Shown here: piece after piece, positions 34,930 to 57,235 of the stretch
Layout: each line of letters begins with the position of its first letter
Numbering within the stretch: the stretch's first letter is position 1
Source of the DNA: Betaproteobacteria bacterium
GTDB taxonomy: Bacteria; Pseudomonadota; Gammaproteobacteria; Burkholderiales; JACQAP01
Direction: 5' to 3'
Assembly: GCA_016194905.1 (NCBI GenBank)
Contig: JACQAP010000017.1
Location: 62,001 to 126,000 of the forward strand
Length of the DNA stretch: 64,000 nt
The notes under the pieces: model-generated
What the model saw: the letters and a program-made list of their open reading frames with translations, nothing else
Databases searched by the model: none
What the model was told of the DNA's origin: nothing
Position numbers and translations under genes: made by a program

Positions 34930-34931
34930 TT
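34893..34931 (-). repeat. Right arm of inverted repeat flanking the pseudo-protease segment
   Basis: Reverse complement of 33332-33378 without its 8-bp insertion. Its last two bases belong to the guaD stop codon, so the repeat abuts that gene exactly. Confidence 0.8.
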
Positions 34932-39613: not shown

Positions 39614-41159
39614 GCGCGGCTTCCGCGGCATCGGCGAACTGGCCGCCCATCCAGGCGCCGATTTTTTCGACGCTGGTTCCGGCAGAGGGCACCGGCGACG
39701 ACAGCCGGCCTTCGGCGATCACGGCCAGTCGGTCGCAGATCATGAACAACTCGTCGAGCTCTTCGGAAATCACCAGCACGGCGACACCCCGGTCGCGCAG
39801 GTCGACCAAAGACTGGCGGATCAACATGGAAGCGCCGACGTCTACGCCCCAGGTCGGTTGCGCGACGACGATGATCCGCGGATCGAGCATGGTTTCACGG
39901 CCGACGATGAACTTCTGCAGGTTGCCGCCGGAGAGGCTGGACGCGGCCGCCTGTTCGTCGCGGCTTTTCACCTTAAAGCGGCTGATCACGTCGCGCGCGA
40001 AACTGCGCACGACTTTGCGGCGGATCAGGCCGTGATGGACCATGCCGCCGTTAACCATTTTGCGATGGCTGCCGGTAAGCAGCGCGTTTTCGGCCAGGCT
40101 GAGCGCCGGCACGGCGCCGCGGCCGAGACGCTCCTCCGGCACGAAGCCGAGCCCGATCGCGCGCCGCTGCGCGGGATCGAGGCGGCCCGCGGCAACCTCC
40201 CCGAGCACGATCGTTTCCGGCTTTCCGGATCGCGCTTCGCCGGACAACGCCGCCAGTAATTCCTTCTGACCGTTGCCGGACACGCCCGCGATGCCGACGA
40301 TTTCGCCGCTGCGCACGGTGAGGCTGATCTCGCGCAGGTTGACGCCGAACGGATCGAGCGTCTTCAGCGTGAGCCGGTCGATCTGCAGCAGCACCTGGCC
40401 GGGTTCGCGGCTTTGCAGCCGGCATTCGGGCAGGTCGGAACCGATCATCATCCTGGCGAGGCTCTCGGCCGTTTCCCGTTTCGGCCTGGCGGTGCCCGTC
40501 ACGCGACCGCCGCGCAGCACCGTCGCGCTGTCGCACAAGGCCTGGATTTCGTCGAGCTTGTGGCTGATGTAGAGGATGCTGCAGCCTTCGGCTGCGAGCC
40601 GGCGCAGGGTCTCGAACAGTTTCAGCACCGCCTGCGGCGTCAGCACCGACGTCGGCTCGTCCATGATCAGCAGCTTCGGATTCTGCAGCAGGCAACGCAC
40701 GATCTCGACGCGCTGCCGCTCGCCCACCGACATGCTGTGGACCAACCGGTCCGGGTCGATCGGCAGGCCGTAGTTCTGCGAGACTTCGCGGATGCGCGGC
40801 GCCAGCTTCGCGGGCTGGATGCGCTCGTCGAGTGCGAGCGAAATATTCTCCGCGACGGTCAGGGTTTCGAACAGAGCGAAATGCTGGAACACCATGCCGA
40901 CGCCGAGCCTGCGCGCTTCCGCGGGGCTGGCGATTTGCACCGGCCGGCCTTCCCACAGCATCTCGCCCGAATCGGGGTGAGTCACGCCGTAGATGATTTT
41001 CATCAGCGTGCTTTTTCCCGCGCCGTTCTCGCCCAGCACCGCATGTATTTCGCCCGGACGCACCGCGAGGTCGACGCCGTCGTTGGCAACCACCGCCGGA
41101 TAGCGTTTGGTGATGCCGCGCAGTTGCAATCGCGGCGGCATGGCAAGCCGGTCGTTCAT
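39606..41159 (-). CDS. ABC transporter ATP-binding protein with two nucleotide-binding domains
   Basis: 517 aa from the ATG at 41159 (ATGA overlap with xdhB). Domain 1: Walker A GENGAGKST (about 40-48), MVFQHFALFETLTVAENIS, signature MSVGERQRVEIVRCLL, Walker B LLIMDEPTSVLTP. Domain 2 (about 260-510): GVSGNGQKELLAALSG in place of a canonical Walker A, signature LSGGNLQKFIVGRE, and VAQPTWGVDVGA as Walker B. Two-domain ATPases of this sort serve ribose/nucleoside importers. It works with the two permeases downstream and the BMP binding protein encoded at 50736. Confidence 0.93.
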   Translation of the reverse strand: MNDRLAMPPRLQLRGITKRYPAVVANDGVDLAVRPGEIHAVLGENGAGKSTLMKIIYGVTHPDSGEMLWEGRPVQIASPAEARRLGVGMVFQHFALFETLTVAENISLALDERIQPAKLAPRIREVSQNYGLPIDPDRLVHSMSVGERQRVEIVRCLLQNPKLLIMDEPTSVLTPQAVLKLFETLRRLAAEGCSILYISHKLDEIQALCDSATVLRGGRVTGTARPKRETAESLARMMIGSDLPECRLQSREPGQVLLQIDRLTLKTLDPFGVNLREISLTVRSGEIVGIAGVSGNGQKELLAALSGEARSGKPETIVLGEVAAGRLDPAQRRAIGLGFVPEERLGRGAVPALSLAENALLTGSHRKMVNGGMVHHGLIRRKVVRSFARDVISRFKVKSRDEQAAASSLSGGNLQKFIVGRETMLDPRIIVVAQPTWGVDVGASMLIRQSLVDLRDRGVAVLVISEELDELFMICDRLAVIAEGRLSSPVPSAGTSVEKIGAWMGGQFADAAEAAHA

Positions 41160-43501
41160 GCGCCGGCTCCCGCGAAGGCCGCAAGCGGTTGCGCGGCTCG
41201 CGCTTTCGTCAGCGAGGCCAGCGCACGCAAAATGGATTCGGGCGTGGCAGGCGCAACCAGGACGGGCAACGTGCCGGATTCGCAGCTCGCGCACGCATCC
41301 CGGATCGCGTACAGCACCGAGATTGCGAGCATCAGCGGCGGTTCACCGACCGCCTTGGAGCGGAAGATGGTGTCTTCGCGATTGGGCGCGTCGGCGAGCA
41401 GGCGCACGTTGAAATGTTTCGGCCAGTCGGCTGCGGTCGGAATCTTGTAGGTCGACGGCGCGTGCGTTCTGAACTGCCCGCGAGCATCCCAGACCAGTTC
41501 TTCGGAGGTCAGCCAGCCCATGCCCTGCACGAAGCCGCCTTCGACCTGGCCGATGTCGAGCGCCGGGTTCAGCGAGCGGCCGACGTCGTGCAGGATGTCC
41601 ACCCTCAGCAGCTTGCTCTCGCCGGTGAGCGTGTCGATGGCGACTTCGGATACCGCGGCCCCGTAGGCAAAATAGAAGAATGGCCGGCCGGTAAGCGTCT
41701 TTTTATCCCAATGGATCTTCGGTGTCCGGTAGTAGCCAGTGGAAGACAGCGAAATGCGCGCCGCGTAAGCCTCGCGCACCAGCTCGCCGAACTCGATTAC
41801 GTGGCCGCCGGCGAGGACCTTGCCGGCGGCGAAGCGCACGGCATCGGACGGCACGGAAAATTTCTCCGCAGCAAAGGCGGCGAGCCTGCCTTTGAGTTTC
41901 TGGCAGGCAGCCTGCGCCGCCTTGCCGTTCAGGTCGGCACCGGATGAGGCGGCGGTTGCGGACGTGTTCGGCACCTTGCTGGTATCGGTGCTGCTGGTGC
42001 GGATCTGCGAAACATCGATCTGCAGTTCGCTCGCCACCACCTGGGCGACCTTGGTGTAGAGCCCCTGTCCCATCTCGGTGCCGCCGTGGTTCACCATCAC
42101 GCTGCCGTCGGTGTAGATGTGCACCAGCGCGCCGGCCTGGTTGTAGATCGTGGCGTTGAACGAGATGCCGAATTTGACCGGCGTCAGCGCGATCCCGCGC
42201 CTGAGGACCGGGCTGGCGGCATTGAATTCGCGGATGCGGCGGCGGCGCTCGCGGTAGTCGCTGCTTGCCTCGAGTTCGTCGGCGATGCGATGGATGATGT
42301 TGTCTTCCACCACCATGCCGTAAGGCGTGACGTTGCGTTCCGCGGTTCCGTAGAAATTGGCGCGGCGCACGTCCAGCGGATCCTTGCCGAGATTGCGCGC
42401 GATATCGTCCATCACCGCCTCTATCGCGACCATGCCTTGCGGACCGCCGAAGCCGCGGAACGCGGTATTCGACACGGTGTTGGTCTTGCAGCGATGCGAG
42501 ACGATTTCGACGTTCTCGAGGAAATAGCAGTTGTCGACGTGGCAGATCGCGCGGTCGTTCACGGGTCCGGACAGGTCCGCGGAAAAGCCGCAGCGCGAGG
42601 CCAGCATGATTTTCGCCCCGGCGATGCGGCCGCTGTCGTCGAAACCCACTTCGTACTCGATCAGGAAATCGTGGCGCTTGCCGGTCATGATCATGTCGGC
42701 ATCGCGATCCAGGCGCAGCTTGACCGGCCGGCGCGTGCGCGCGGCGATCACCGCGGCGGCGCAGGCATATTGTCCCGGCTGGCTTTCCTTGCCGCCGAAG
42801 CCGCCGCCCATGCGCCGGCACTGCACGACGACCTCGTGCGATTTCTTGCCGAGCGCATGCGCGACCATGTGCTGCACCTCGGTCGGGTGCTGCGTCGAGC
42901 TGTAGATCAGCATGCTGCCGTCTTCCTGCGGCAGCGCCACCGCAACCTGGCCTTCCAGATAGAAGTGTTCCTGCCCGCCGAGTTCCGCGCTGCCGGCCAG
43001 TCGATGCCGCGCGCGGCCGATCGCCGTTTCGGGTTCGCCGCGGCGCAGGGTGTGCGTGGGCACGACGAAACTTTTTGCCGCGAGTGCGCTGCGGACGTCG
43101 AGGATCGCCGGCAACTCCTCGACCTCGACACGCGCAAACTTTGTCGCGCGCCGCGCGGCGCCATAAGAGGTTGCCGCGACCCCGAACAGCGACTGGCCGG
43201 CGAATTCCACCAGCGATTCGGCGAAGATCGGATCGTCGTGCAGCACCGGGCCGATCAGGTTGGAACCGGGAACGTCGGCTGCGGTGACGATGGCCACCAC
43301 CCCGGGTGCGGTGGCAACCGCCGAAAGGTCCATCGACTTGATGCGGCCGTGGGCGACCGTACTCATGCCGAGCGCGACATGCAGGACATTTTCCGGGAGC
43401 GGGATGTCGTCGGTGTAGTTCGCCGCGCCGCTGACATGCAGCGGCGCGCTTTCGTGCGGCAGCGGTTGGCCGGCGACGGACACGTGAACGAGTTCGGGCA
43501 T
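41156..43501 (-). CDS. xdhB: Xanthine dehydrogenase molybdopterin-binding subunit
   Basis: 781 aa, complete. SAPLHVSGAANYTDDIPLPENVLH begins the family body; GQEHFYLEGQVAVALPQEDG and CRRMGGGFGGKESQ bind molybdopterin; NTAFRGFGGPQGM and the C-terminal KAVGEPPLMLAISV hold the catalytic Arg and Glu. With XdhA it oxidises hypoxanthine to xanthine and xanthine to urate. It starts 4 bp after xdhA stop. No xdhC maturation gene is near. Confidence 0.95.
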   Translation of the reverse strand: MPELVHVSVAGQPLPHESAPLHVSGAANYTDDIPLPENVLHVALGMSTVAHGRIKSMDLSAVATAPGVVAIVTAADVPGSNLIGPVLHDDPIFAESLVEFAGQSLFGVAATSYGAARRATKFARVEVEELPAILDVRSALAAKSFVVPTHTLRRGEPETAIGRARHRLAGSAELGGQEHFYLEGQVAVALPQEDGSMLIYSSTQHPTEVQHMVAHALGKKSHEVVVQCRRMGGGFGGKESQPGQYACAAAVIAARTRRPVKLRLDRDADMIMTGKRHDFLIEYEVGFDDSGRIAGAKIMLASRCGFSADLSGPVNDRAICHVDNCYFLENVEIVSHRCKTNTVSNTAFRGFGGPQGMVAIEAVMDDIARNLGKDPLDVRRANFYGTAERNVTPYGMVVEDNIIHRIADELEASSDYRERRRRIREFNAASPVLRRGIALTPVKFGISFNATIYNQAGALVHIYTDGSVMVNHGGTEMGQGLYTKVAQVVASELQIDVSQIRTSSTDTSKVPNTSATAASSGADLNGKAAQAACQKLKGRLAAFAAEKFSVPSDAVRFAAGKVLAGGHVIEFGELVREAYAARISLSSTGYYRTPKIHWDKKTLTGRPFFYFAYGAAVSEVAIDTLTGESKLLRVDILHDVGRSLNPALDIGQVEGGFVQGMGWLTSEELVWDARGQFRTHAPSTYKIPTAADWPKHFNVRLLADAPNREDTIFRSKAVGEPPLMLAISVLYAIRDACASCESGTLPVLVAPATPESILRALASLTKARAAQPLAAFAGAGA

Positions 43502-43505
43502 GGGC

Positions 43506-44975
43506 TCAATGCTCCTCGAGTTCGGCCACGCGGGTCGGCACCGGTTTCCCGCTGTGCTCGGCAAAGAAGCGCAGCAGCAGGTTCTGCGCCACCAGCATCC
43601 GGTATTCGGCGCTGGCACGCATGTCGGTCAGCGGGGCGTAGTCCAGCGCGAGCGCGGAAAGCGCCGCTTCCATGGTGGCGCGCGACCACGGCTGGTCGAT
43701 GAGCGCCGCCTCCGTGTGCATTGCGCGTTTCGGCACGGCAGCCATGCCGCCGTAGGCAATACGTGCCTTTGCGATGCGGCCGTCCTCCAGGTCGAACGCG
43801 TAGGCGCCGCACAGCGCGGAAATGTCCTGGTCGAAGCGTTTGGAAATCTTGTAACTGGCGAACCGGCGCCCGGCGGGTGACAGCGGAATGCGCACGGCTT
43901 CGACGAACTCGCCGGGTTGCAGCGCTGTCTTCTGGTAGCCGAGATAGAAGTCTTCGAGCGGCATCTCGCGTTCGCCGCCGCCGCGGCGCAGCTTCACGGT
44001 TGCACCGAGAACCAGCAGGAAAGGCATGGAGTCGCCGATCGGCGATCCATTGGCGACATTGCCGCCGAGCGTGCCGGAGTTGCGCACCGGGGGCGAACCG
44101 AAGCGATCGGCGAGTTCCGCCAGCATGGGATAGCGCGCAACGATGGCGGCATAGGCGTCGGTGAGGCTGACCGCTGCGCCGATTTCGACGGCATTTCCGG
44201 TCTCGCGCACGCTCCTGAGCTCGGCGACGTTGCCGGTGTAAATGAGCATCGGCAGGTCGCGCAGCTGCTTGGTGACCCAGAGGCCGATGTCCGTGCCGCC
44301 GGCGAGCAGCAACGCCTGCGGGTGGGCTTCGCAGAGCCGCGCGAGTTCGTCGATCGAAACCGGCGCACGAAAACCGGCGCCGCCGTCGAGCGAGACGGTA
44401 TCGGTTGCGGCGATGGCCTCCAACGCCTCGTGCCGCTTTGCATCCCGCGCATACGCGCGGCTCCAGGACGCCGGATCGGCATAGCCGCTCATGCGGCAAC
44501 CGGCATCGATGATCGGCCGGTAACCGGTGCAGCGGCACAGGTTTCCCGACAGCGCCCGCACGACATCGTCGCGCTGCGGCGCCGCCTCATTCAGATACAG
44601 GCCGAACAGCGACATGACGAAACCCGGGGTGCAGAAACCGCATTGCGAAGCATGCCAGTCCACCATCGCCTGCTGCACCGGATGCAGTTTGCCGTCGGCC
44701 GACTTCAGGTTTTCCACCGTGACGATTTCCTTGCCGTCGAGCGTGGGCAGGAAGCGGATGCAGGAATTGATGGCGCGATAGCTGATTTTGCCGGCGGCGG
44801 GTTCACCGATCACCACGGTACAGGCGCCGCAGTCTCCTTCGGCGCAACCTTCCTTGGTGCCGGTGCGTCCGAGCTTCTCGCGCAGATACTCCAGCACCGT
44901 CATCGTCGGTGCGACGTCGTCGAGTTGCACAACTTCGCCATCGAGGATGAACCGGATGGATCGGCGGGCCGGCAT
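43506..44975 (-). CDS. xdhA: Xanthine dehydrogenase small subunit (2Fe-2S and FAD)
   Basis: 489 aa from the ATG at 44975. Plant-type 2Fe-2S ligands in GCAEGDCGACTVVIG (about 40-54); second cluster in QCGFCTPGFVMSL and NLCRCTGYRPII; FAD domain from about residue 190 with LLLAGGTDIGLWV and NVANGSPIGDSMP. It transfers electrons from the molybdenum site in XdhB to NAD. It starts 2 bp after the uraH stop. Confidence 0.95.
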   Translation of the reverse strand: MPARRSIRFILDGEVVQLDDVAPTMTVLEYLREKLGRTGTKEGCAEGDCGACTVVIGEPAAGKISYRAINSCIRFLPTLDGKEIVTVENLKSADGKLHPVQQAMVDWHASQCGFCTPGFVMSLFGLYLNEAAPQRDDVVRALSGNLCRCTGYRPIIDAGCRMSGYADPASWSRAYARDAKRHEALEAIAATDTVSLDGGAGFRAPVSIDELARLCEAHPQALLLAGGTDIGLWVTKQLRDLPMLIYTGNVAELRSVRETGNAVEIGAAVSLTDAYAAIVARYPMLAELADRFGSPPVRNSGTLGGNVANGSPIGDSMPFLLVLGATVKLRRGGGEREMPLEDFYLGYQKTALQPGEFVEAVRIPLSPAGRRFASYKISKRFDQDISALCGAYAFDLEDGRIAKARIAYGGMAAVPKRAMHTEAALIDQPWSRATMEAALSALALDYAPLTDMRASAEYRMLVAQNLLLRFFAEHSGKPVPTRVAELEEH

Positions 44976-44977
44976 GT

Positions 44978-45325
44978 TCAGCTGCCGCGATAAGTGGAGT
45001 AACTCCACGGCGATACCAGCAACGGAACGTGATAGTGCTGGTCGATGCCGGAGAGGCCGAAACGCAACGCGATCCGGTCGAGGAAGGGCGGATCGGGAAG
45101 CTTCACGCCGAGCGCGCGGAAATAATCGGCCGTATGGAACACCAGTTCGTATTCGCCCGGGACGAAAGACGCGCCTTCGAGCAGCGGCCGCCCGCAGCGT
45201 CCGTCCGCATCGCTGCGCCCCGAGAACAGGACCTCGTCCGCAGGCAGGCGGCGCAGTTCGATCAGCATGCCGGCCGCGGGGCGGCCATGCGCGGTATCGA
45301 GAATGTGCGTGGTGAGCTTGCCCAT
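44978..45325 (-). CDS. uraH: 5-hydroxyisourate hydrolase (transthyretin-like)
   Basis: 115 aa from the ATG at 45325. The family ends are both present: LTTHILDTAHGRPAAGM at the N-terminus (active-site His) and the diagnostic C-terminal YRGS. FHTADYFRALGVKLPDPPFLDRIALRFGL is the central part, with conserved HYHVPLLVSPWSYSTYRGS end. It hydrolyses 5-hydroxyisourate to OHCU. It is the first gene of the leftward purine operon, divergent from gntR. Confidence 0.95.
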   Translation of the reverse strand: MGKLTTHILDTAHGRPAAGMLIELRRLPADEVLFSGRSDADGRCGRPLLEGASFVPGEYELVFHTADYFRALGVKLPDPPFLDRIALRFGLSGIDQHYHVPLLVSPWSYSTYRGS

Positions 45326-45360
45326 CGGAAACGGTGCGTCGCCGTGCCCTCGGTCATAAA

Positions 45361-45370
45361 ACTGTATACA
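45361..45370. promoter_or_regulatory. ACTGTATACA operator candidate before uraH
   Basis: ACTGTATACA contains the palindrome TGTATACA and lies 36-45 bp before the uraH start, just downstream of a TATATT/TATTAT -10-like tract on the minus strand. The same ten bases recur in inverse orientation at 49362-49371, before the porin operon. Confidence 0.5.
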
Positions 45371-45510
45371 TAATATAGCGCGGACGTTGCGTTCCGGCCC
45401 GGCCGAATGCGCCACGCTGGGGCGGAGGCTCCTCCTGCCGCACCAATTCCGGTCCGCGCATCGCATCGGCTGCAACGCAGCCGGACCGGAACCCGTCGTG
45501 TACAATCACT

Positions 45511-45539
45511 TTGAATATTGTCGCGAGGTTGTGCAATAT
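45511..45539 (+). promoter_or_regulatory. Predicted sigma-70 promoter of gntR-puuE operon
   Basis: TTGAAT (45511-45516), 17-bp spacer, CAATAT (45534-45539). An ACAAT (45502-45506)/ATTGT (45516-45520) pair overlaps the -35 box. The position favours the ATG at 45578 as the start of the regulator. Confidence 0.45.
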
Positions 45540-45577
45540 GCATGCCACGCAACAAACCCGGCGTCCCTGCAACCGTG

Positions 45578-46351
45578 ATGAGTCTGAAGAATAGCAAAGG
45601 CGTGAGGCGGACCGGAAAAAAAACGGCGAAGCTGTCTGTCCGCGCCCCCGAGGCGGTTCGAGCCAAGGCGAAGCGCGGCCTGTCCGGGACCGACAGGCGC
45701 ATTTACGACTCGGTGTTCAACGCCGTCATGAGCCAGCGCCTGCCGCCCGGCACGAAACTCACCGAGTCGACTTTCTGCGAGCTGTTCAAGGTAAGCCGCA
45801 CCATCGTGCGCAAGGCGCTGCAACGGCTCGCGCATGAACACATCATCGAGTTGCGCCCGAACCGCGGCGCCATTGTCGCACGTCCCACGCCGCAGGAAAC
45901 GCGCGAGATCTTCATCGCGCGCCGCGCCGTCGAGGCGGCGATTGTGCCGCTGGCCGTGATGCGCGCCACGAGGCCGCAGATCGCCCGGTTGCGCCAGCTG
46001 GTGAAGGAGGAAGACGCCGCATTGCATCGCGGCGACCGCCCAGCCTGGATCCGGCTGGGCGGCGAATTCCATATCATGCTCGCCGAGGCGGCAGCCAACA
46101 AAGTCCTGCTGCGCTACCTGACGGAGCTCGTGTCGCGTTGCTCGCTGATCATTGCGCTCTACGAAAGTCCCGGCAGCATACCCTGCGCCAGCGAGGAACA
46201 TAACGAGCTCATCGACCTGATAGTCGAAGGCGAGACACGCAAGGCGGCGGAGCGCATGGACCGGCATTTGCTCGCCATCGAGCGCAAGCTCAAGCTCAAA
46301 GACGACGATGAGAACATCGACCTGGCGAAAATCCTGGGCGTGACGGCATGA
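45578..46351 (+). CDS. GntR family regulator, FCD (FadR-like) domain
   Basis: 257 aa from the ATG at 45578; an earlier ATG at 45542 would sit right at the predicted transcription start. A basic N-tail is followed by the winged helix (IYDSVFNAVMSQRLPPGTKL; VSRTIVRKALQRLAHEHIIEL) and an all-helical FCD domain (FIARRAVEAAIVPLAVM; FHIMLAEAAANKVLLRYL; EEHNELIDLIVEGETRKAAERM), with the Asp/His metal or ligand residues of the group. It lies at the centre of the purine island and overlaps puuE by 4 bp, so it is the obvious local regulator, sensing a purine-pathway intermediate. Confidence 0.9.
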   Translation: MSLKNSKGVRRTGKKTAKLSVRAPEAVRAKAKRGLSGTDRRIYDSVFNAVMSQRLPPGTKLTESTFCELFKVSRTIVRKALQRLAHEHIIELRPNRGAIVARPTPQETREIFIARRAVEAAIVPLAVMRATRPQIARLRQLVKEEDAALHRGDRPAWIRLGGEFHIMLAEAAANKVLLRYLTELVSRCSLIIALYESPGSIPCASEEHNELIDLIVEGETRKAAERMDRHLLAIERKLKLKDDDENIDLAKILGVTA

Positions 46352-47283
46352 ACGCACCCGGCAGCTTTGACCCCGGCTATCCGCGCGACCTGATCGGTTA
46401 CGGGCGCAATCCGCCGCATGCGAGATGGCCGGGCGAGGCGCGCGTCGCACTGCAGTTCGTGCTCAACTATGAGGAGGGCGCGGAGAACAGCGTGCTGCAC
46501 GGCGACCCGGCCTCGGAAACCTTCCTCTCGGAAATCGTCGGCGCGCAACCCTTCGTGGGCGCACGGCACATGAGCATGGAGTCGCTTTACGAGTACGGCA
46601 GCCGCGCCGGGCTGTGGCGGCTGCTGCGGTTGTTCGAGCAGCGCCGGTTGCCGCTGACCGTATTTGCGGTGGGCATGGCGGTGGCGCGCAATCCGGAAGC
46701 GGTGGCCGCGATGGCCGCCCTCGGCCATGAAATTGCCAGCCATGGCTGGCGCTGGATCAACTATCACGGCGTGGACGAAAACACCGAACGCGAGCACGTC
46801 AGCCTGGCGGTCGAGGCGATCCGCCGCGTCGCCGGTGTCGCCCCGCTGGGCTGGTACACCGGGCGCACCAGCGAGAATACCCGGCGCCTTGTCGTGGAGC
46901 ACGGCGGCTTCCTCTACGACGCGGATTCCTACAGCGACGACCTGCCCTACTGGGAAATGGTCGGGGACAGGCCGGTCCTCATCGTGCCGTACGCGCTCGA
47001 CACCAACGACATGCGCTTTGCCACGGCGCAGGGCTTCAACAGCGGCGACCAGTTCTTCAGCTATCTGAAGGATGCGTTCGACGTGCTCTACGCGGAAGGG
47101 GAGTCGGCGCCGAAGATGCTGTCGATCGGCCTGCATTGCCGCCTCGCGGGCCGTCCCGCGCGCATCGCCGCGCTGGCGCGTTTCCTCGACCACGTGCAGA
47201 AGCACGACAGGGTCTGGATCTGCCGGCGCGTGGAAATCGCCCGCCACTGGGCCGAGCATCACCCTTATCTCGCGCCGGCGTGA
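46348..47283 (+). CDS. puuE: Allantoinase PuuE (polysaccharide-deacetylase fold)
   Basis: 311 aa. YPRDLIGYGRNPPHARWPGEARVALQFVLNYEEGAE opens PuuE proteins, seen here with GYGRNPPHARWPG and VLNYEEGAE. SRAGLWRLLRLFEQRRLPLTVF and HEIASHGWRWINYH carry the deacetylase-fold site; no zinc motif of the DHH type is obvious, as in known metal-independent PuuE. It converts allantoin to allantoate. The start overlaps gntR (ATGA) and its stop overlaps uraD (GTGA), so translation is coupled on both sides. Confidence 0.95.
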   Translation: MNAPGSFDPGYPRDLIGYGRNPPHARWPGEARVALQFVLNYEEGAENSVLHGDPASETFLSEIVGAQPFVGARHMSMESLYEYGSRAGLWRLLRLFEQRRLPLTVFAVGMAVARNPEAVAAMAALGHEIASHGWRWINYHGVDENTEREHVSLAVEAIRRVAGVAPLGWYTGRTSENTRRLVVEHGGFLYDADSYSDDLPYWEMVGDRPVLIVPYALDTNDMRFATAQGFNSGDQFFSYLKDAFDVLYAEGESAPKMLSIGLHCRLAGRPARIAALARFLDHVQKHDRVWICRRVEIARHWAEHHPYLAPA

Positions 47284-47789
47284 CGATTTCGATCCATCAA
47301 ATCGATGCGCTGGACCGCGAGGCATTCATTGAACAGCTCGGCGGCATCTACGAGCATTCGCCCTGGGTTGCGGAGCGGACATGGAAAGCGCGGCCGTTCC
47401 GGTCGCGCGACGCGCTGCACGCGGCGATGGAAGAAGTTGTCGCGGCCGCCGGCCACGAGGAGCAACTGGCATTGATTCGCGCGCATCCGGAACTCGCGGG
47501 CAGGCTTGCGGTGGCGGGGCAGCTGACCGGTGCGTCGCGCAGCGAGCAAGCCGGCGCCGGCCTCGATCGCTGCACGCCGGAAGAGTTCGCACGACTGCAG
47601 GCATTGAATGCCGCCTACCGGAAGAAATTCGAATTTCCGTTCATTGTCGCGGTACGCGGACTGACGCGCACGCAGATCATCGGCCAGCTGGAACAGCGGC
47701 TCGCGCATTCCGCGGAACAGGAATTCAGCGCTTGCCTGCTGGAAATCGGGCGCATCGCCGGGTTCCGGCTGCATGACCTGATCGGATAA
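47280..47789 (+). CDS. uraD: OHCU decarboxylase
   Basis: 169 aa. The GTG at 47280 overlaps the puuE stop as GTGA. All-helical UraD fold: LGGIYEHSPWVAERTWKARP, catalytic His and Glu in AGHEEQLALIRAHPELAGRLA, then EEFARLQALNAAYRKKFEFPFIVAVRG. It decarboxylates OHCU to S-allantoin, following UraH. The earlier in-frame starts lie inside puuE and are not needed. Confidence 0.94.
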   Translation: MTISIHQIDALDREAFIEQLGGIYEHSPWVAERTWKARPFRSRDALHAAMEEVVAAAGHEEQLALIRAHPELAGRLAVAGQLTGASRSEQAGAGLDRCTPEEFARLQALNAAYRKKFEFPFIVAVRGLTRTQIIGQLEQRLAHSAEQEFSACLLEIGRIAGFRLHDLIG

Positions 47790-47813: not shown

Positions 47814-48833
47814 ATGACAGACAAACAAATGAATCCGGACGCACCGGACTTCGTGCGCCGATGCGTGAACCTGGCCGATCCACGCATCGGCGCCAGGGCG
47901 CTTTCGGCAAGCGACGAATTCTTCGCGCCGAAGGATCGCATGCTGGCACGTGCCGCCGCGGTGTTCGTCGCCGGCAAATACGACGAGAACGGCAAGTGGA
48001 TGGACGGGTGGGAGACCCGCCGCCGGCGGGGTCCCGGCCACGACTTCTGCGTGATCCGCCTGGGCCTGCCGGGAGCGATACGCGGTTTCGACATCGACAC
48101 CAGCCATTTCACCGGCAACTATCCGCCCGCTGCTTCGATCGAAGCGTGCCTGTCGGAGGGCGACCCCGGCGCGGATGCCGAATGGGTCGAACTGCTTGCG
48201 CCGCTCAAACTCGCCGGCAACACGCATCACTATCCGGCGATAGCCGACCCGCGGATATGGAGCCACGTGCGGCTCAACATTTATCCCGACGGCGGCATTG
48301 CCCGGCTGCGCGTGTATGGAGAGGTCGCGCGCGACTGGTCGCAGCGCGGCGGCGACACGCTCTACGACCTCGCCGCCGTCGAAAACGGCGGCCGTCCGGT
48401 GGCGTGGAACGACGCGCATTTCGGCAATCCGATCAATCTGCTGGCGCCCGGGCGTGGCGAGAACATGGGCGACGGCTGGGAAACGCGCCGCCGGCGCGAA
48501 CCGGGCAACGACTGGAGCGTGATCGCGCTGGGCTGGCCCGGAATCATCCGCAGGATCGAAGTCGATACCGCGCATTTCAAGGGCAACTATCCCGATCGTT
48601 GCTCGCTGCAGGCCACCAACGCGAAGAACGTGCCTGACGAGGCGCTGGTGACGCAAAGCATGTTCTGGCCGGTGCTGCTGCCCGAACAGCCACTGTCGAT
48701 GGACGCGGTGCACGTATTCGCGGAGCAGATCAGCGGCCTCGGCGCGATCACGCACGTGCGCTTCAACATCATTCCCGACGGCGGCGTGAGCCGGCTGCGC
48801 CTGTGGGGCCAGGTCTCTGCGGGGCGGCGATGA
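47814..48833 (+). CDS. alc: Allantoicase
   Basis: 339 aa, two repeated beta-jelly-roll domains of about 165 residues: each has the GWETRRRR...G.D(F/W)..I.LG.PG.IRG/RR...DT.HF.GN(Y)P pattern, at about residues 63-105 and 221-263. AAGGAG precedes the ATG by 7 bp. It hydrolyses allantoate to ureidoglycolate and urea. It is 24 bp after uraD and overlaps allA by 4 bp. Confidence 0.95.
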
Positions 48834-49339
48834 GCGCGGCGCAGGTACTGGAGGTGCGGCCGCTTACGCGCGCGGGGTTTGCGCGCTTCGGCGACGTGAT
48901 CGAGACCGATGGCTCGCGCTCCTTCGCCATCAATGACGGCACGGCAATGCGCTTCAACGACCTCGCGCAGATCGATGTGTCGATGCAGGGCGGCCGCACG
49001 GCGCTCAGCGTGTTCCGCGGCCAGCCGGTGCGTTTTCCGTTGCAGTTGTCCGAAGTCGAGCGCCACCCGCTGGGTAGCCAGGCCTTCGTGCCGGTGGGCG
49101 TGATTCCTTTTCTGATCGTGGTGGCGGCCGACGGCACGGACGGACGGCCCGGCGAGCCATTCGCCTTTCTGAGCAATGGCCGCCAGGGCGTGAACTACGC
49201 CCGCGGCGTCTGGCACCATCCGTTGCTCTCGCTCGGCGGCGTCAGCGATTTTCTGGTCGTCGAGCGCGCCGGTCCCAGCGAAAACTGCGATGTAGCCGCG
49301 CTACCCGGACGCTATCTGATCGAATCGGTCGTTTTCTGA
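48830..49339 (+). CDS. allA: Ureidoglycolate lyase
   Basis: 169 aa, cupin-type All[49 protein letters not shown] and the C-terminal [27 protein letters not shown] match the family. It splits ureidoglycolate into glyoxylate and urea, ending the pathway. The ATG at 48830 overlaps the allantoicase stop as ATGA. Confidence 0.94.
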
Positions 49340-49604: not shown

Positions 49605-49739
49605 GAGTATCCACGCAGTGCATTTTATTGGATGCAATCGCGCGTTCCGATGGGGTGCTTGCGCGTTGCCGGATAGATCGGAATGCAGATCTTCCCGGCA
49701 GCGGTTCATGGGCTCGAAGACTTCAAGGGAGTTTGCAAA

Positions 49740-50603
49740 ATGAGCGGGATAAATCGAAAGGTGGCGACGGCACTTGTGGCCGGCGCTGTGGCATTGGGAA
49801 CCGTGCTTGGCGCGGGCATGACATCCGCCGTCGCGGCGGAATGGAGCGATACCTCGATCGGCTACCGGTACGGCACCAAGTTCCGCGAACCGTTCAACAA
49901 CGAGGACATCAGCAAGAGCATCATCGATTTGCAGCACGTGAGCGGCTACAAGTACGGTGTGAATTTCTTCAATGTCGACTTCCTGATGTCGGACAGCAAC
50001 GATCCGGGCGCGAACAGCACGGGAGCGCAGGAGGCGTACCTGGTCTACCGCAATACCGTCGACCTCGCCAAGGTCACGGGCGGTGACTACAAATTCGGGA
50101 TCGTGCGCGACATCGGCGGCACATTCGGCTTCGACTGGAACACGAAGAACGATGTCGGTTACTCCTCCAAGAAGCGAATGCTCGTGATCGGTCCGACCGT
50201 CATGATGGATGTTCCCGGCTTCCTGAACGTCAGCGTGCTGGCACTCTGGGAGAGCAACGCGCCGGTCGGCATCACCAGCCGCTACGACTACGACACGCAT
50301 GCGATGCTGGATCTCGCCTGGGGCATTCCCATCGGTTCCTCGCCATTCCGTTTCCAGGGCTACTTCGACGTCATCGCCCCCAAGGGCAAGGATGAGTTCG
50401 GCGGAGACACCAAGACAGAAATCCATTTCGACGGCGCAATCATGCTGGACGTGGGACGTATCGCGGGTGGCCCCAAGGATATGTTCAAGGTGGGCCTCGA
50501 ATACGAATACTGGGAGAACAAGTTCGGTAATGACCACAACGGTCCGGCCGGCGACGGCGCCTTCGCCAAGACCCCGATGATCCGCGCCGAATATCACTTC
50601 TAG
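49740..50603 (+). CDS. Tsx-like nucleoside-specific outer-membrane channel
   Basis: 287 aa from the ATG at 49740 with AAGGGAG upstream. Signal peptide: KVATALVAGAVALGTVLGAGMTSAVA. The mature protein begins AEWSDTSIGYRYGTKFREPF and is rich in alternating beta strands; NFFNVDFLMSDSNDPGANSTGAQEAYLVYR and YDYDTHAMLDLAWGIPIG resemble Tsx/DUF5020 channels. The last residues YHF end in Phe, the usual outer-membrane barrel signal. It should let nucleosides or bases pass into the periplasm. It is the first gene of the rightward transport and deamination operon. Confidence 0.85.
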   Translation: MSGINRKVATALVAGAVALGTVLGAGMTSAVAAEWSDTSIGYRYGTKFREPFNNEDISKSIIDLQHVSGYKYGVNFFNVDFLMSDSNDPGANSTGAQEAYLVYRNTVDLAKVTGGDYKFGIVRDIGGTFGFDWNTKNDVGYSSKKRMLVIGPTVMMDVPGFLNVSVLALWESNAPVGITSRYDYDTHAMLDLAWGIPIGSSPFRFQGYFDVIAPKGKDEFGGDTKTEIHFDGAIMLDVGRIAGGPKDMFKVGLEYEYWENKFGNDHNGPAGDGAFAKTPMIRAEYHF

Positions 50604-50735
50604 GCCGGCGGATCCTGCGCGGCAACGGCGGGTACATTCCGTCACGCGGCGGCAAGATGCCGCCGCGTGACGGTTTCGTTGATATAAGCTTATGGCAGGT
50701 TGTTCATGCATGTTGGAAACATCAAGGAGGAAGTC

Positions 50736-51821
50736 ATGAAAAGATTCGGTTCCCGTCTGGCCGCATCGCTGCTGGGCGCAGTCCTGGCGCTGGGCGCGGC
50801 GGGTGGCGTCATCGCCGCCGAGCCGCTCAAGGTCGGGTTCGTCTATGTCGGGCCGGTGGGGGACGCGGGCTGGACTTATGCGCACGACCAGGGCCGCCTG
50901 ATGCTGGAGAAGGAGCTGGCCGGCAAGGTGAAAACGACTTTCGTCGAGAACGTGCCGGAAGGCGCCGACGCGGAGCGAGTCATCCGCCAGCTCGTCACCG
51001 ACGGCAACAAAGTGATCTTCACCACCTCGTTCGGTTACATGAACGCAACCGTGAAGGTCGCGCAAAGCTTTCCGGATGTGATTTTCGAGCACGCCACCGG
51101 CTACAAGACGTCGAAAAACCTCGGTGTCTACGAAGCCCGGTTCTACGAAGGAGCGTATCTGCTCGGCATCCTGGCCGGCAAGATGACCAAGTCCGACACG
51201 CTGGGCTTCGTCGGCTCTTTCCCGATCCCGGAAGTGATCCGCAACATCAATGCATTCACGCTCGGTGCGCAGAGCGTCAACCCGAAAATAAAGACCAAGG
51301 TGATCTGGGTCAACACCTGGTATGACCCGGCCAAGGAACGCCAGGCCGCGGAGACGCTGGTCGCGCAGGGCGCGGACGTGATGTGCCAGAACACCGACTC
51401 GCCTGCGGTGCTGCAGGTGGCGCAGGAAAAAGGCGTCTATGCCTTCGGCTGGGATTCGGACATGACCAAGTTCGCGCCCAAGGCGCATCTGTCGGCGAAC
51501 ACCAACAACTGGGGCGTGTACTACGTCGCGGCGGTGAAATCCATTCTGGCGGGAACCTGGAAGCCGGACGTCGTGAAGTGGGGCTTGAAGGAGAACCTGG
51601 TGGTGATGTCGCCGGTGAATGCGGCAGTCCCGGCCGATGGCAAGAAAGCCTTCGAGGACAAGCAGAAGGCGATCAAGGAAGGCAAGTTCCAACCGTTCCA
51701 GGGACCGGTCAAGGATCAGTCGGGTGCGATCAAAGTGGCCGCAGGCAAGGTCATGCCGATCGAGGAATTGATGGGCTTCAACTGGTACGTGGAGGGTGTC
51801 GAAGGCTCGATTCCGAAGTAA
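50736..51821 (+). CDS. BMP family ABC transporter substrate-binding protein
   Basis: 361 aa from the ATG at 50736, with AAGGAGG 5 bp upstream. Signal peptide: SRLAASLLGAVLALGAAGGVIA. PLKVGFVYVGPVGDAGWTYAHDQGR is the PF02608 opening, followed by VIFTTSFGYMNATVKVAQSFPD, YEARFYEGAYLLGILAG and QNTDSPAVLQVAQEKGVYAFGWD. BmpA-type proteins bind purine nucleosides or bases. It is the periplasmic partner for the ATPase and permeases encoded 10-13 kb away on the opposite strand in this island. Confidence 0.92.
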   Translation: MKRFGSRLAASLLGAVLALGAAGGVIAAEPLKVGFVYVGPVGDAGWTYAHDQGRLMLEKELAGKVKTTFVENVPEGADAERVIRQLVTDGNKVIFTTSFGYMNATVKVAQSFPDVIFEHATGYKTSKNLGVYEARFYEGAYLLGILAGKMTKSDTLGFVGSFPIPEVIRNINAFTLGAQSVNPKIKTKVIWVNTWYDPAKERQAAETLVAQGADVMCQNTDSPAVLQVAQEKGVYAFGWDSDMTKFAPKAHLSANTNNWGVYYVAAVKSILAGTWKPDVVKWGLKENLVVMSPVNAAVPADGKKAFEDKQKAIKEGKFQPFQGPVKDQSGAIKVAAGKVMPIEELMGFNWYVEGVEGSIPK

Positions 51822-51842: not shown

Positions 51843-52919
<1,077 letters not shown>

Positions 52920-52936: not shown

Positions 52937-53971
52937 ATGGGCATCATCGAACAACCCGACGACCGCACGCTGCTGGATGACTGGCATCCCGTCGCGGGTT
53001 CGTCTTCGCTCGTTGCCGGCAAACTCCTCGCGGTGCGTCTTCTCGGACGGGAAGTGGTGCTGTGGCGGGATCCAATGAACGATGTGCATGCGTGGGAAGA
53101 CCGCTGCCCGCATCGCGGCACGCGGTTGTCGATCGGGCACGTCGAAGGCGCCGAAGTCGTGTGCGCGTATCACGGCTGGCATTACGGCACGGACGCGCGC
53201 TGCACTCGCGTTCCCGCGTTGCCCGAGTTGTCGGGCAAGACGCAAGCGAAGGTGATGGCCTACCGCGCCGAAGAAAAATACGGCCTGGTCTGGGTCTGCA
53301 TCGGCGAGCCCGTCGCAAAGGTGTTGCCGTTCCCGGAATATGCCGACCCGAATCTGCGCAAGGTGCTGTGCGGCCCGTATGACGTGGCCACCAGCGGCCC
53401 GCGCATCGTCGAGAATTTTCTCGACATGGCGCATTTCGCGATGGTCCATACCGGCATTCTCGGCGACCCGGGCCGGACCGAGGTGCGCGACTACGATGTC
53501 GCCGAATTCGACGACGGGCAGGGCGGCAAGGGCATTCTGGCGACGCATTGCCATGCGTGGCAGCCGCAGACCAACAGCCTTGCGCACGGCGGCAGCGAAG
53601 TGGAGTACACCTATCGCGTGGTGCGGCCGCTGACGGCCATCCTGACAAAACTGCCGCAGGCGCAGTCGGATTTCCGCGAAGCCATCAGCCTGCATGTGCA
53701 GCCTGTAGAAGAAGAACTGAGCCGCGTCTGGATCATTCTCGCGCTGACCAACTTCGTGCAATCCGAGGACGAACTGCGCGCTTTTCAGGACCGCATCTTC
53801 CTGCAGGACAAGCCGATCCTGGAAAACCAGGTGCCGAAGAAACTGCCGCTGGATCCGGGGGCGGAAATGCCGGTGCGCTGCGATCGCATGTCGCTCGCGT
53901 ATCGGCGTTACCTGCGCGACAAGGCGCTGCGTTACGGCGTCCTGACGGCCGCAGCGCCAGTGCACGCCTGA
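52937..53971 (+). CDS. Rieske non-heme iron oxygenase, purine-cluster (HpxD-like?)
   Basis: 344 aa. N-terminal Rieske domain with Cys57 and His59 (CPHRG) and Cys76 and His79 (CAYHGWHYG). The C-terminal catalytic domain has the Fe(II) motif FLDMAHFAMVHTG (Asp163, His166, His171). The size and layout match HpxD and methylxanthine N-demethylases (NdmA/B) more than aromatic-ring alpha subunits, which are about 450 aa. The position between adenine deaminase and 8-oxoguanine deaminase points to oxidation of a purine ring or side group. No reductase partner lies in the window. It starts 17 bp after the deaminase stop. Confidence 0.88.
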   Translation: MGIIEQPDDRTLLDDWHPVAGSSSLVAGKLLAVRLLGREVVLWRDPMNDVHAWEDRCPHRGTRLSIGHVEGAEVVCAYHGWHYGTDARCTRVPALPELSGKTQAKVMAYRAEEKYGLVWVCIGEPVAKVLPFPEYADPNLRKVLCGPYDVATSGPRIVENFLDMAHFAMVHTGILGDPGRTEVRDYDVAEFDDGQGGKGILATHCHAWQPQTNSLAHGGSEVEYTYRVVRPLTAILTKLPQAQSDFREAISLHVQPVEEELSRVWIILALTNFVQSEDELRAFQDRIFLQDKPILENQVPKKLPLDPGAEMPVRCDRMSLAYRRYLRDKALRYGVLTAAAPVHA

Positions 53972-54005: not shown

Positions 54006-55448
54006 ATGTCGACACCGGCTCCTGCAAATACGCTGCTGACCGACACCCTCCTCATCTGCGGCGCTGAAGTCGTCGTGACCATGGACGCAATGCGCCGCGA
54101 AATTCGTGGCGCAAGCGTCTTCATCCGCGGCGATGCAATCGAAACGGTCGGCAGTGATGCCGACGTTGCCGCCTGGATCGCCGCCGATCCGGTTGCGCTT
54201 ACGCCTGCCAGGACCATCAGCGCGCGCGGCTGTGTGGTCCTGCCCGGCCTGGTGAACTGTCATCATCACCTCTACCAGTCGTTGACCCGCAGTGTCGGCA
54301 CCGGCCGCGGACTGGCGTTGTTCGACTGGCTGAAGAGGCTCTATCCGGTGTGGGCGGAACTGACTCCCGACGCGGTCTATGTCAGCGCCAAACTCGCGCT
54401 GTGCGAGCTGGTGCTGAGCGGTGCGACCACGGTGGCGGATCATCTTTACCTGTTTCCGAACGGTGCGCGTCTCGACGACGAGATCCGTGCTGCGGCCGAA
54501 ATCGGCGTGCGCTTCCATCCGACCCGCGGCAGCATGAGCCTGGGGGAGGGCCGCGGCGGCCTGCCGCCGGACCGCATCGTCGAGGACGAGCGGGCGATCC
54601 TTGCCGACAGCCGGCGCGTGATCGAAACCTTCCACGATCCCGGCCCGCGCTCGATGCTGCGCATCGGCCTGGCGCCGTGCTCGCCGTTCAGCGTCAGCCC
54701 GGAACTCATGATCGACAGCGCGCGGCTGGCGCGCAGTCACGAGCGCGTCGGCCTGCACACCCACCTCGCGGAGACGCTGGACGAGAATCGCTACTGCGCG
54801 GAAATGTTCGGCAAGCGGCCGCTCGAGTACGTCGAATCGCTGGACTGGCATGGCGACGAAGTGTGGTTCGCGCACATGGTGCATCCCGACCGCGACGAAA
54901 TTGCGCGGCTGGTGCAGAGCCACAGCGGTGTCTGTCATTGTCCGAGCAGCAACATGATCCTCGCGTCCGGCATCGCGCCGGTGCGGGACATGCTCGATCG
55001 CGGCGTAAAAGTGGCGCTCGGCGTGGACGGTTCGGCCAGCAACGACGGCAATCACATGCTCGGCGAAGCGCGCCAGGCGATGCTGCTGCAACGGGTCGGC
55101 TGGCCCGGGTTCGAATCGCGCGGGGACCGCATGTCAGCGCGCGAGGCGCTGGAACTGGCAACGTTGGGCGGCGCGAAAGTCCTGCAACGCAGCGACATCG
55201 GCAGCCTCGAACCGGGTAACGCGGCGGACGTGGTGGCATTCCGCGTGGACGACCTTGGCCATGCCGGCGCGCTCGGCGATCCGGTTGCAGCGTTGGTGAC
55301 CTGCGCGCCGCAACGCGCCTGGCTGTCTGTGATCAACGGCCGCGTCGTGGTCGAAGACGGGACGCTCCGCGGCATCGACCTCGGTCCGCTGGTCGAGCGC
55401 CACAACCGGATCAGCCGCGGCATGCTCGAGCGCGCCGGGCTGGCCTGA
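54006..55448 (+). CDS. 8-oxoguanine deaminase
   Basis: 480 aa. GCVVLPGLVNCHHHLYQSLTR (about 75-95) carries the first zinc ligands; FDWLKRLYPVWAELTPDAVY is typical of the family; GLHTHLAETLDE has the His and catalytic Glu; CHCPSSNMILASGIAPVRDML and GVDGSASNDGNHML complete it. It matches PA0142-type enzymes that deaminate 8-oxoguanine to urate (via 8-oxoxanthine) and also act on isocytosine or guanine. Ammonia release and urate production fit the puuD route. It is 34 bp after the Rieske gene and 2 bp before the next deaminase. Confidence 0.92.
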   Translation: MSTPAPANTLLTDTLLICGAEVVVTMDAMRREIRGASVFIRGDAIETVGSDADVAAWIAADPVALTPARTISARGCVVLPGLVNCHHHLYQSLTRSVGTGRGLALFDWLKRLYPVWAELTPDAVYVSAKLALCELVLSGATTVADHLYLFPNGARLDDEIRAAAEIGVRFHPTRGSMSLGEGRGGLPPDRIVEDERAILADSRRVIETFHDPGPRSMLRIGLAPCSPFSVSPELMIDSARLARSHERVGLHTHLAETLDENRYCAEMFGKRPLEYVESLDWHGDEVWFAHMVHPDRDEIARLVQSHSGVCHCPSSNMILASGIAPVRDMLDRGVKVALGVDGSASNDGNHMLGEARQAMLLQRVGWPGFESRGDRMSAREALELATLGGAKVLQRSDIGSLEPGNAADVVAFRVDDLGHAGALGDPVAALVTCAPQRAWLSVINGRVVVEDGTLRGIDLGPLVERHNRISRGMLERAGLA

Positions 55449-55450
55449 AT

Positions 55451-55939
55451 ATGGCAGCCGCGAGTGATAAAAACGATCTGCTGTATCTGCGCAAGGTGAT
55501 CACCCTGTCGGAACAGGCGAAGGCGCGCGGCAAGCATCCGTTCGCGGCACTGATCGTGGACCGACAGGGGGAAGTTCTGGCCGAAGCCGGCAATGCATTC
55601 GGCTGGCCGGACGGCGATGCCACCGGCCACGCGGAATTGCTGGCGGTGCGGGACGCCTCGCGCCGCTATCCGCCGGAGCATCTTGCCAAGGCGACGTTGT
55701 ACAGTAGCGCCGAACCCTGCGCCATGTGCGCGGGCGCGATCTATTGGTCGGGTATTTCGCGGGTGGTCTACGCGCTCTCCGAGGAACGTTTGCTGTCGCT
55801 CACAGGAAATCATCCGGAAAATCCGACGTTGTCGCTGCCCTGCCGCGAGGTATTCGCGCGTGGGCAGCGCGCGATCGAAGTCGTCGGGCCGCTGCTGGAG
55901 GACGAGGCGGCTGTTCCCCACAAAGATTTCTGGCGCTAA
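55451..55939 (+). CDS. Nucleoside deaminase, CDA fold (GuaD/TadA-like)
   Basis: 162 aa with the zinc motifs of the cytidine-deaminase fold: TGHAELLAVRDA (HAE, about 58-60) and EPCAMCAGAIYWSG (PCxxC, about 93-97). Length and the GAIYWSGISRVVYAL segment match the B. subtilis-type guanine deaminase group rather than TadA. It may deaminate guanine, guanosine or another purine. It begins 2 bp after the 8-oxoguanine deaminase gene and is the last gene of the purine island. Confidence 0.88.
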   Translation: MAAASDKNDLLYLRKVITLSEQAKARGKHPFAALIVDRQGEVLAEAGNAFGWPDGDATGHAELLAVRDASRRYPPEHLAKATLYSSAEPCAMCAGAIYWSGISRVVYALSEERLLSLTGNHPENPTLSLPCREVFARGQRAIEVVGPLLEDEAAVPHKDFWR

Positions 55940-56155: not shown

Positions 56156-57235
56156 ATGGCGACCCAAGCGGCGGCCGACGAAGTCCTGTTCTTCATTCCG
56201 GATCTCGGCGGCTTTACGAAATTCATCGCCGAGACCGAGATCCAGCACAGCCAGCACATCATTAAGGAACTGCTGGAAATCCTGGTCGACGCCAATACGC
56301 TCGGCATGAAGGTATCCGAGTTCGAGGGCGACGCCGTGCTGTTCTACCGCAACGGCGCGCCGCCGTCGCTCGAGCAACTGGTGCAGCAGGCCAGGAAGAT
56401 GTACCTGGACTTCCATACGCACCTGAAAAAATTTGAATACGCCCGCATCTGCCAATGCGGTGCCTGCGCCGGCGCCAGCGGCATTGCTCTGAAGATGGTT
56501 GCGCATTTCGGCTCCGCGGGCACCATGCAGGTGAAGAATCATCTGAAATTCATCGGCAAGGACATCATCATCGCGCACCGCCTGCTGAAGAACTCGGTGA
56601 CCGTGCCCGAGTACCTGCTGGTCACCCGGCCGACCCTGTCCAGGCTTGCGGACGCGGACGGCCGGCTCGTCTCCTTTGCCAATGGCGCCGACGCCTATGA
56701 CAACCTCGGCACGATCGAGTATCACTTCAAATCGCTGGACAGTTACAGGGACGAGGTAAAGGTCGACCCGCCCGCGCCCGAAGGGCTGAAGAATCCGCGC
56801 AAGATGACGCAACTGACCCGGCGGATCGATGCGCCCATCGAGCGGGTCTATCAGCGGCTGATCGACCTGCCGGGGCGCATGAATTGGATGGAGAGCGTCA
56901 CCAAGGTCGAAATGTCCAACGACCAACCCAACCAGATCGGCAAGACGCATCGATGCGTCCGGGGTGATGAAGGCATCGAGGTGATGACCACCGAGGTCAA
57001 GATCAGCGACACGACAATGGAACTCTGGGAAACGGACCTCAAGAATACAAGCGCCTGCCGGTATCTGCTCACGCGGGCGCCCGGCGGCAAGGCCGATCTC
57101 GCGGTCGAGTTGTTCGTGCGCGACAACCCGATCGTTCGGATGATCTTCAGGTTCCTGATGGAGAAGAAATTGAAAGTGTTTTTCGAAAAATCGATCGCCA
57201 ACCTCGGCGAGGTATGCGAGAAGGCCGATCGATGA
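56156..57235 (+). CDS. DUF2652-SRPBCC two-domain protein
   Basis: 359 aa. Residues about 1-205 match DUF2652, a relative of class III adenylate cyclase domains: LFFIPDLGGFTKFIAETEI (the cyclase first strand-loop) and KVSEFEGDAVLFYR (Gly-Asp metal site). Residues about 220-358 look like a SRPBCC/polyketide-cyclase domain (MTQLTRRIDAPIERVYQRLIDL; NWMESVTKVEM). A Cys-rich ICQCGACAG lies near residue 100. The role is unknown; the pairing suggests a small-molecule-responsive signal protein. It stands alone, with no partner gene close by. Confidence 0.75.
   Translation: MATQAAADEVLFFIPDLGGFTKFIAETEIQHSQHIIKELLEILVDANTLGMKVSEFEGDAVLFYRNGAPPSLEQLVQQARKMYLDFHTHLKKFEYARICQCGACAGASGIALKMVAHFGSAGTMQVKNHLKFIGKDIIIAHRLLKNSVTVPEYLLVTRPTLSRLADADGRLVSFANGADAYDNLGTIEYHFKSLDSYRDEVKVDPPAPEGLKNPRKMTQLTRRIDAPIERVYQRLIDLPGRMNWMESVTKVEMSNDQPNQIGKTHRCVRGDEGIEVMTTEVKISDTTMELWETDLKNTSACRYLLTRAPGGKADLAVELFVRDNPIVRMIFRFLMEKKLKVFFEKSIANLGEVCEKADR

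Follow-up and report, generated by a model that had tools for sequence, protein, structure and literature searches.

A one-piece Rieske oxygenase related to NdmC/NdmD within a purine degradation cluster of a betaproteobacterium

The window that we analysed, a stretch of 64,000 nucleotides from a Betaproteobacteria bacterium (contig JACQAP010000017.1, positions 62,001 to 126,000), contains a broad set of genes for purine catabolism and uptake around a gene encoding a Rieske non-heme iron oxygenase. The features, numbered within the window, are:

34930-36246, minus strand: guanine deaminase (profile)
36263-37462, minus strand: membrane urate oxidase, Urate_ox_N (profile), which we take to be of the PuuD type
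37581-38567, minus strand: ABC importer permease (profile)
38504-39631, minus strand: ABC importer permease (profile)
39606-41294, minus strand: ABC importer ATPase (profile)
41156-43618, minus strand: xanthine dehydrogenase large subunit XdhB (1274.7 bits, cut-off 849.5)
43506-45008, minus strand: xanthine dehydrogenase small subunit XdhA (657.9 bits, cut-off 467)
44978-45505, minus strand: hydroxyisourate hydrolase (profile)
45518-46351, plus strand: GntR/FCD regulator (profile)
46348-47283, plus strand: allantoinase PuuE (profile)
47136-47789, plus strand: OHCU decarboxylase UraD, start uncertain (profile)
47814-48833, plus strand: allantoicase (profile)
48803-49339, plus strand: ureidoglycolate lyase (profile)
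49683-50603, plus strand: Tsx-like outer-membrane channel, homologous (E 3e-24, 27%) to a Tsx-family protein of a caffeine cluster
50700-51821, plus strand: BMP/PnrA-type substrate-binding protein of an ABC importer (profile; purine/nucleoside type by context)
51858-52919, plus strand: adenine/adenosine deaminase, ADD (above two adenosine deaminase cut-offs)
52937-53971, plus strand: Rieske non-heme iron oxygenase, one-piece relative of NdmC/NdmD, 344 amino acids (open reading frame from ATG to stop, Pfam, trees)
53105-53173, plus strand: Rieske [2Fe-2S] ligands C57-x-H59 ... C76-x2-H79 (invariant in an 11-row alignment)
53423-53449, plus strand: D163-x2-H166-x4-H171 (sequence and the 11-row alignment; putative bridging Asp and two iron His)
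53786-53800, plus strand: Q284 and F288, specificity positions (counterparts of the two residues changed in the QL variant of NdmA)
53807-53809, plus strand: D291, likely third iron ligand (alignments)
54006-55448, plus strand: 8-oxoguanine deaminase (628.8 bits, cut-off 532)
55451-55939, plus strand: small zinc nucleobase deaminase of the cytidine deaminase fold (Pfam, PDB comparison)

Gaps of 17 and 34 bases separate the oxygenase gene from the deaminase genes upstream (51858-52919) and downstream (54006-55448), all on the same strand. A preliminary description of this DNA had placed the oxygenase gene between genes for an adenine deaminase and an 8-oxoguanine deaminase and had listed XdhAB nearby, and both statements hold, as the profile scores of the two neighbours and of both XDH subunits exceed their cut-offs. 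The best PDB match of the 51858-52919 product was 3ou8, with 3pan, 3pao and 3pbm also matching; these entries are named adenosine deaminase and are presumably the adenine deaminase of Pseudomonas. The nearest PDB entries of the 55451-55939 product are named CMP/dCMP deaminase and zinc-binding protein (8wlw, 5xkq), and this small deaminase together with the 8-oxoguanine deaminase could hint at the use of modified bases. Downstream of the deaminases we found a gene for a fused DUF2652 and polyketide-cyclase-like protein (56156-57235, plus strand). A Pfam scan of the Tsx-like protein gave no match, a scan of the whole window at Rfam gathering scores gave none either, and the xanthine/urate NMT1 motif (PMC7373994) was not seen in it.

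The 344-residue protein matched the Pfam families Rieske (E 2.3e-21) and VanA_C (E 1.9e-18), it is the sole VanA_C match in the genome of 4.75 Mb, and it has what marks a Rieske oxygenase alpha-subunit (CxH...CxxH, DxxHx4H and a later carboxylate). We indeed found C57, H59, C76, H79, D163, H166 and H171, all named in the preliminary description, but its labelling of the last three as an Fe(II) motif is right for the histidines and probably not for the aspartate. The Asp of a DxxHxxxxH motif normally bridges subunits in this enzyme family, with the iron carboxylate ligand further along the chain, and we take D163 to be the bridging Asp and H166 and H171 to be the iron histidines. By analogy with the family, the carboxylate ligand is likely to be D291, which does not vary in the 11-row alignment or across the 27 listed rows of a comparison of catalytic domains. 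At the positions of Q284 and F288 three NdmC proteins also have Q and F, NdmA and HpxD have N and F, NdmB has Q and L, and two relatives of the split type (L049a and L022) have M and F. A genome of the same genus encodes a homologue with 81-82% identity, and the conservation of the oxygenase far exceeds chance.

A structure model was made from the 11-row alignment (mean pLDDT 79.3). Its best fold matches were SxtT and GxtA (Z 34.5-35.3, rmsd 2.1-2.4 over 313-320 residues), followed by NdmA (Z 30.9), NdmB (29.4), guaiacol demethylase (28.9) and dicamba demethylase (28.0), with NdmB and the guaiacol O-demethylase tied by fold score. Among PDB sequences the order was the same (Sxt 1.7e-55, NdmA 2.8e-40, NdmB 8.5e-32, guaiacol demethylase 1.6e-16, dicamba demethylase 1.1e-9), and an O-demethylase of the vanillate/dicamba type was rejected as closest kin, the Sxt and Ndm enzymes matching far better by sequence. 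NdmC likewise preferred SxtT (1.1e-24) over NdmA (4e-8), and HpxD had hardly any preference (1.2e-40 versus 1e-38). SxtT and GxtA are the closest solved proteins by sequence (E 1.7e-55) and by fold (Z 35). According to PDB ligand titles their substrate is a tetrahydropurine alkaloid; they were compared by PDB sequence and fold only and were left out of all trees. We take both to be hydroxylases of a biosynthetic pathway, and because these are the nearest folds, hydroxylation is as possible for the window enzyme as demethylation.

For the trees, annotated records of a plasmid collection served as HpxD and NdmA-E references. One of these records, CP125156.1 (L147), is labelled plasmid, but its size of 5.37 Mb points to a Klebsiella chromosome. 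Four plasmids from Klebsiella pneumoniae (279-431 kb) carry a gene whose product, annotated merely as dioxygenase subunit, shares 52% identity with the NdmA stretch. The row pool held 51 full-length, 112 Rieske-less (every third used, 38 rows) and 70 Rieske-only rows, duplicate loci, L106, L107, L117 and the reference loci being left out; stray hits from an antisense translation of the gene were filtered out by query position. The careful catalytic-domain tree was built from 46 of 110 rows, the Rieske tree from 54 rows (15 of the 70 Rieske-only rows and 7 references among them) and the joint tree from 39 rows. The catalytic domains of L043 (a contig of a Planctomycetota MAG) and L046 (a Piscinibacter MAG), both NdmB-like, were identical over the tree columns, which might reflect misbinning in one of the MAGs.

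The catalytic-domain tree separated the one-piece proteins and NdmC from HpxD and NdmA/B (branch 99/98), a split also found in a broader quick tree (SH-aLRT 99). The Rieske tree united the one-piece proteins with the NdmD-type domains (96/93; several inner branches are weak), the latter being a group (96/88) nested among the one-piece proteins, and in the joint tree the one-piece proteins and the NdmC/D pairs stood apart from HpxD, NdmA/B and the others (100/99). The window protein falls outside the split NdmC clade proper (89/99 catalytic, 100/99 joint) and inside the same larger clade; the 12 rows of other VanA_C proteins, enzymes without assigned function, all fall outside its clade. Identity over the catalytic domain is in line with this: 42% with NdmC, 30% with HpxD and 28% with NdmA (24-28% with NdmA/NdmB). 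HpxD identity is rejected, as the window protein lies outside the HpxD clade and the AU test rejects a grouping of the window clade with HpxD (p 0.00013 for both domains, 0.0099 for the catalytic domain). Membership of NdmA/NdmB, one-piece enzymes with a similar Rieske plus VanA-like fold (Z about 30) in a separate clade (100/100), is rejected for both domains (p 2.2e-6) and not for the catalytic domain alone (p 0.076). The phylogeny proposed beforehand thus gave no grouping with HpxD or, on both domains, with NdmA/B; kinship with purine Rieske enzymes stood, and the place of HpxD and NdmA/NdmB as comparison set is taken by NdmC/NdmD.

A single clade of all one-piece proteins, a constraint group chosen after the first tree had been seen, had p 0.008 for both domains and 0.056 for the catalytic domain, and the split form is therefore likely to be nested among one-piece proteins. 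All outgroup rows keep the Rieske domain, so that the split is the derived state, and since both domains of NdmC/NdmD are kin to the window type, the split probably arose from such a one-piece oxygenase. The NdmC/NdmD pair would thus probably descend from a one-piece enzyme whose Rieske domain was lost to a reductase, and the window enzyme and its relatives appear to represent that ancestral, undivided state.

The window protein shares with NdmC + NdmD + NdmE (the 7-methylxanthine N7-demethylase of Pseudomonas putida CBB5) the larger clade for both domains, the purine-type gene context and Q/F at the two specificity positions. Unlike that system, it has both domains on one chain and no gene for a GST or Rieske-bearing reductase was found near it. 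It differs from NdmC proper in two respects: the Rieske domain is present, and an NdmD-type reductase and an NdmE-like GST were each found in none of the 19 one-piece loci of the beta type (window included). A role for the GST in NdmCDE is proposed in PMC4408171; its absence from all 19 loci is as expected if only the split form requires it. The NdmCDE homologues of Sinorhizobium, Mesorhizobium and others, described as without known function in PMC4408171, belong to the same lineage and often have a BMP-type importer gene (46/66 split-type loci); they differ in a catalytic subunit that lacks the Rieske ligands and in the accompanying genes for an NdmD-type reductase (55/66) and a GST (57/66). 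In one such locus (L049, 6861-8681) two tandem Rieske-less NdmC-like subunits precede a single NdmD-like reductase and a GST, several Mesorhizobium loci have a similar pair of matches, and a heteromeric oxygenase is possible for this arrangement.

The association with purine genes was conserved. In the order sample 18 of 399 genomes contain a match at E <= 1e-60, and in the genus two of four (the window genome included in both); the 18 order loci and L005, on a betaproteobacterial contig, make up the two beta-type one-piece clades, with 8 loci in the window clade and 11 in the second. A gene for a purine importer, deaminase or XDH was found nearby in 8/8 and 11/11 of these loci (window included), and a BMP importer gene in 17 of the 19, versus no purine-gene link in 20 control stretches, 17 kb in length and drawn from five of the genomes in question; their positions were hand-picked round numbers, and one stretch contains 5000 N. 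The purine role suggested earlier for the oxygenase is strengthened by this difference. Flanks were of unequal length (20 kb upstream in the window, 8 kb at the other loci), and several contigs are cut (L005, L127, L008, L013, L014 and others); without the 20-kb reach guanine deaminase and ABC permease each count 4/8, and the 8/8 is unchanged, since the importer gene lies 1.1 kb from the oxygenase. The same link was present in 10 of 15 loci of Acidimicrobiia and in 47 of 66 loci with Rieske-less relatives.

The preliminary description had noted that no reductase gene is near, and we likewise found none close by; an NdmD-type reductase was found neither in the 20 kb before the gene and the 8 kb after it nor elsewhere in the window genome. 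An HpxE-type reductase was not found in the window, and the strongest candidate in the genome scores only E 4.3e-6 and sits on another contig. This absence of a local donor suggests that the electron donor probably acts in trans; candidates are two BenC-like ferredoxin-reductases (L156 and L157, all under cut-offs) and a small Rieske ferredoxin (L159) beside genes that read by eye as suf-like. The formaldehyde genes frmA and fghA were found near none of the 17 one-piece beta-type loci examined; they occur together in two of four split-type loci examined (L046 and L080, not L022 and L049) and in two of three caffeine-type clusters fetched, none being listed in the third. The window genome has an frmA homologue (63%) elsewhere.

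We consider the oxygenase to be a purine-base Rieske monooxygenase of the undivided NdmC/NdmD lineage and most likely an N-demethylase of the 7-methylguanine type, a reading to which we give a probability of about 45%. Gene context and kinship argue strongly for a purine base as substrate. Demethylation as the chemistry is moderately indicated, with kinship to NdmC, Q284/F288 as in three NdmC proteins and frmA/fghA in 2/4 split-type loci in its favour, and with the 17 one-piece loci lacking frmA/fghA, the M of L049a and L022 and the SxtT/GxtA folds against it; NdmC demethylation may be a derived activity. For 7-methylguanine itself the indications are weak. Purine bases would enter the cell via the Tsx-like channel and the BMP-type ABC importer, and the oxygenase, with Rieske and mononuclear iron domains on one chain and electrons from a general cellular ferredoxin/reductase, would use O2 to remove an N-methyl group, at N7 or elsewhere on the ring nitrogens, with formaldehyde as product; 7-methylguanine set free when RNA and DNA are turned over could be one such base. 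The freed base would pass to the adjacent deaminases and on via XDH, urate and allantoin to glyoxylate. The open-licence literature yielded no paper on a 7-methylguanine demethylase of the Rieske type, nothing relevant by title among the matches listed for 7-methylguanine demethylation with guanine deaminase in bacteria, and only a caffeine review for Rieske oxygenase with guanine deaminase and purine.

A close rival, which we regard as possible if somewhat unlikely, is a purine C8-hydroxylase that converts guanine to 8-oxoguanine, from which the 8-oxoguanine deaminase would make urate in a molybdenum-free bypass of XDH. Five of eight window-clade loci have the 8-oxoguanine deaminase gene close to the oxygenase gene (the other three include the cut contigs L005 and L127); in the window as well as in L004, L018 and L126 it follows immediately, and a homologue occurs in 3/15 Acidimicrobiia loci (L025, 46%; L062, 48%; L038, only 31%) and in one of 66 split-type loci (L022, 58%). 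HpxD, annotated as a molybdenum-independent xanthine hydroxylase, would be a precedent for Rieske hydroxylation of the purine ring, and the SxtT/GxtA folds and the absence of formaldehyde genes nearby also fit. Nevertheless, the deaminase gene is found in none of the 11 second-clade loci, guanine deaminase and XDH are already encoded in the cluster, and the kin of the window protein is NdmC and not HpxD. No paper tying 8-oxoguanine deaminase to a Rieske enzyme was found in the open-licence literature.

An HpxD-like hypoxanthine/xanthine hydroxylase, serving as a backup for XDH under molybdenum shortage, is improbable. HpxD (of Klebsiella, Pantoea, Acinetobacter and Paraburkholderia) is likewise a one-piece Rieske oxygenase of about 345 residues annotated for purines (343-351 versus 344 amino acids), the window gene lies in a purine operon, and the upstream deaminase would provide hypoxanthine; against this stand the separate, AU-rejected clade (p 0.00013 for both domains) with 30% catalytic identity, and the weak HpxE-type match, whereas most hpxD loci have a partner gene. 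An oxidoreductase or rubredoxin gene of their own adjoins in 4/5 hpxD loci, an annotated oxidoreductase gene in L149, L150 and L151 and none in the table of L147. In L148 (5911-8334) a Paraburkholderia hpxD is followed by genes for a rubredoxin and an FAD-dependent oxidoreductase with no VanB-type reductase, which suggests an alternative electron route for HpxD. It is very improbable that the enzyme acts on an aromatic acid or a non-purine N-heterocycle and lies in the operon by chance, as the VanA_C name of the C-terminal part and the fold tie between NdmB and guaiacol O-demethylase are set against a purine link in 19/19 loci of two clades and sequence matches to guaiacol and dicamba demethylases far below those to Sxt, NdmA and NdmB.

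To return to N-demethylation, a wider and more tentative proposal, doubtful as a whole, is that the one-piece enzyme would be an oxidative demethylase of free methylated nucleobases (7-methylguanine first) from RNA and DNA turnover, as a general step of purine use, and that NdmCDE arose from it by transfer of the Rieske domain to the reductase and recruitment of a GST that keeps the parts assembled. Among the matches listed for NdmCDE homologues in Sinorhizobium, PMC4408171 was the only relevant one. The undivided kin make the origin of the split NdmC/NdmD testable. The one-piece enzymes of Burkholderiales and Acidimicrobiia form a group of oxygenases linked to purine genes; we found no substrate assigned to it, so pathway maps may lack a step in how bacteria use purines.
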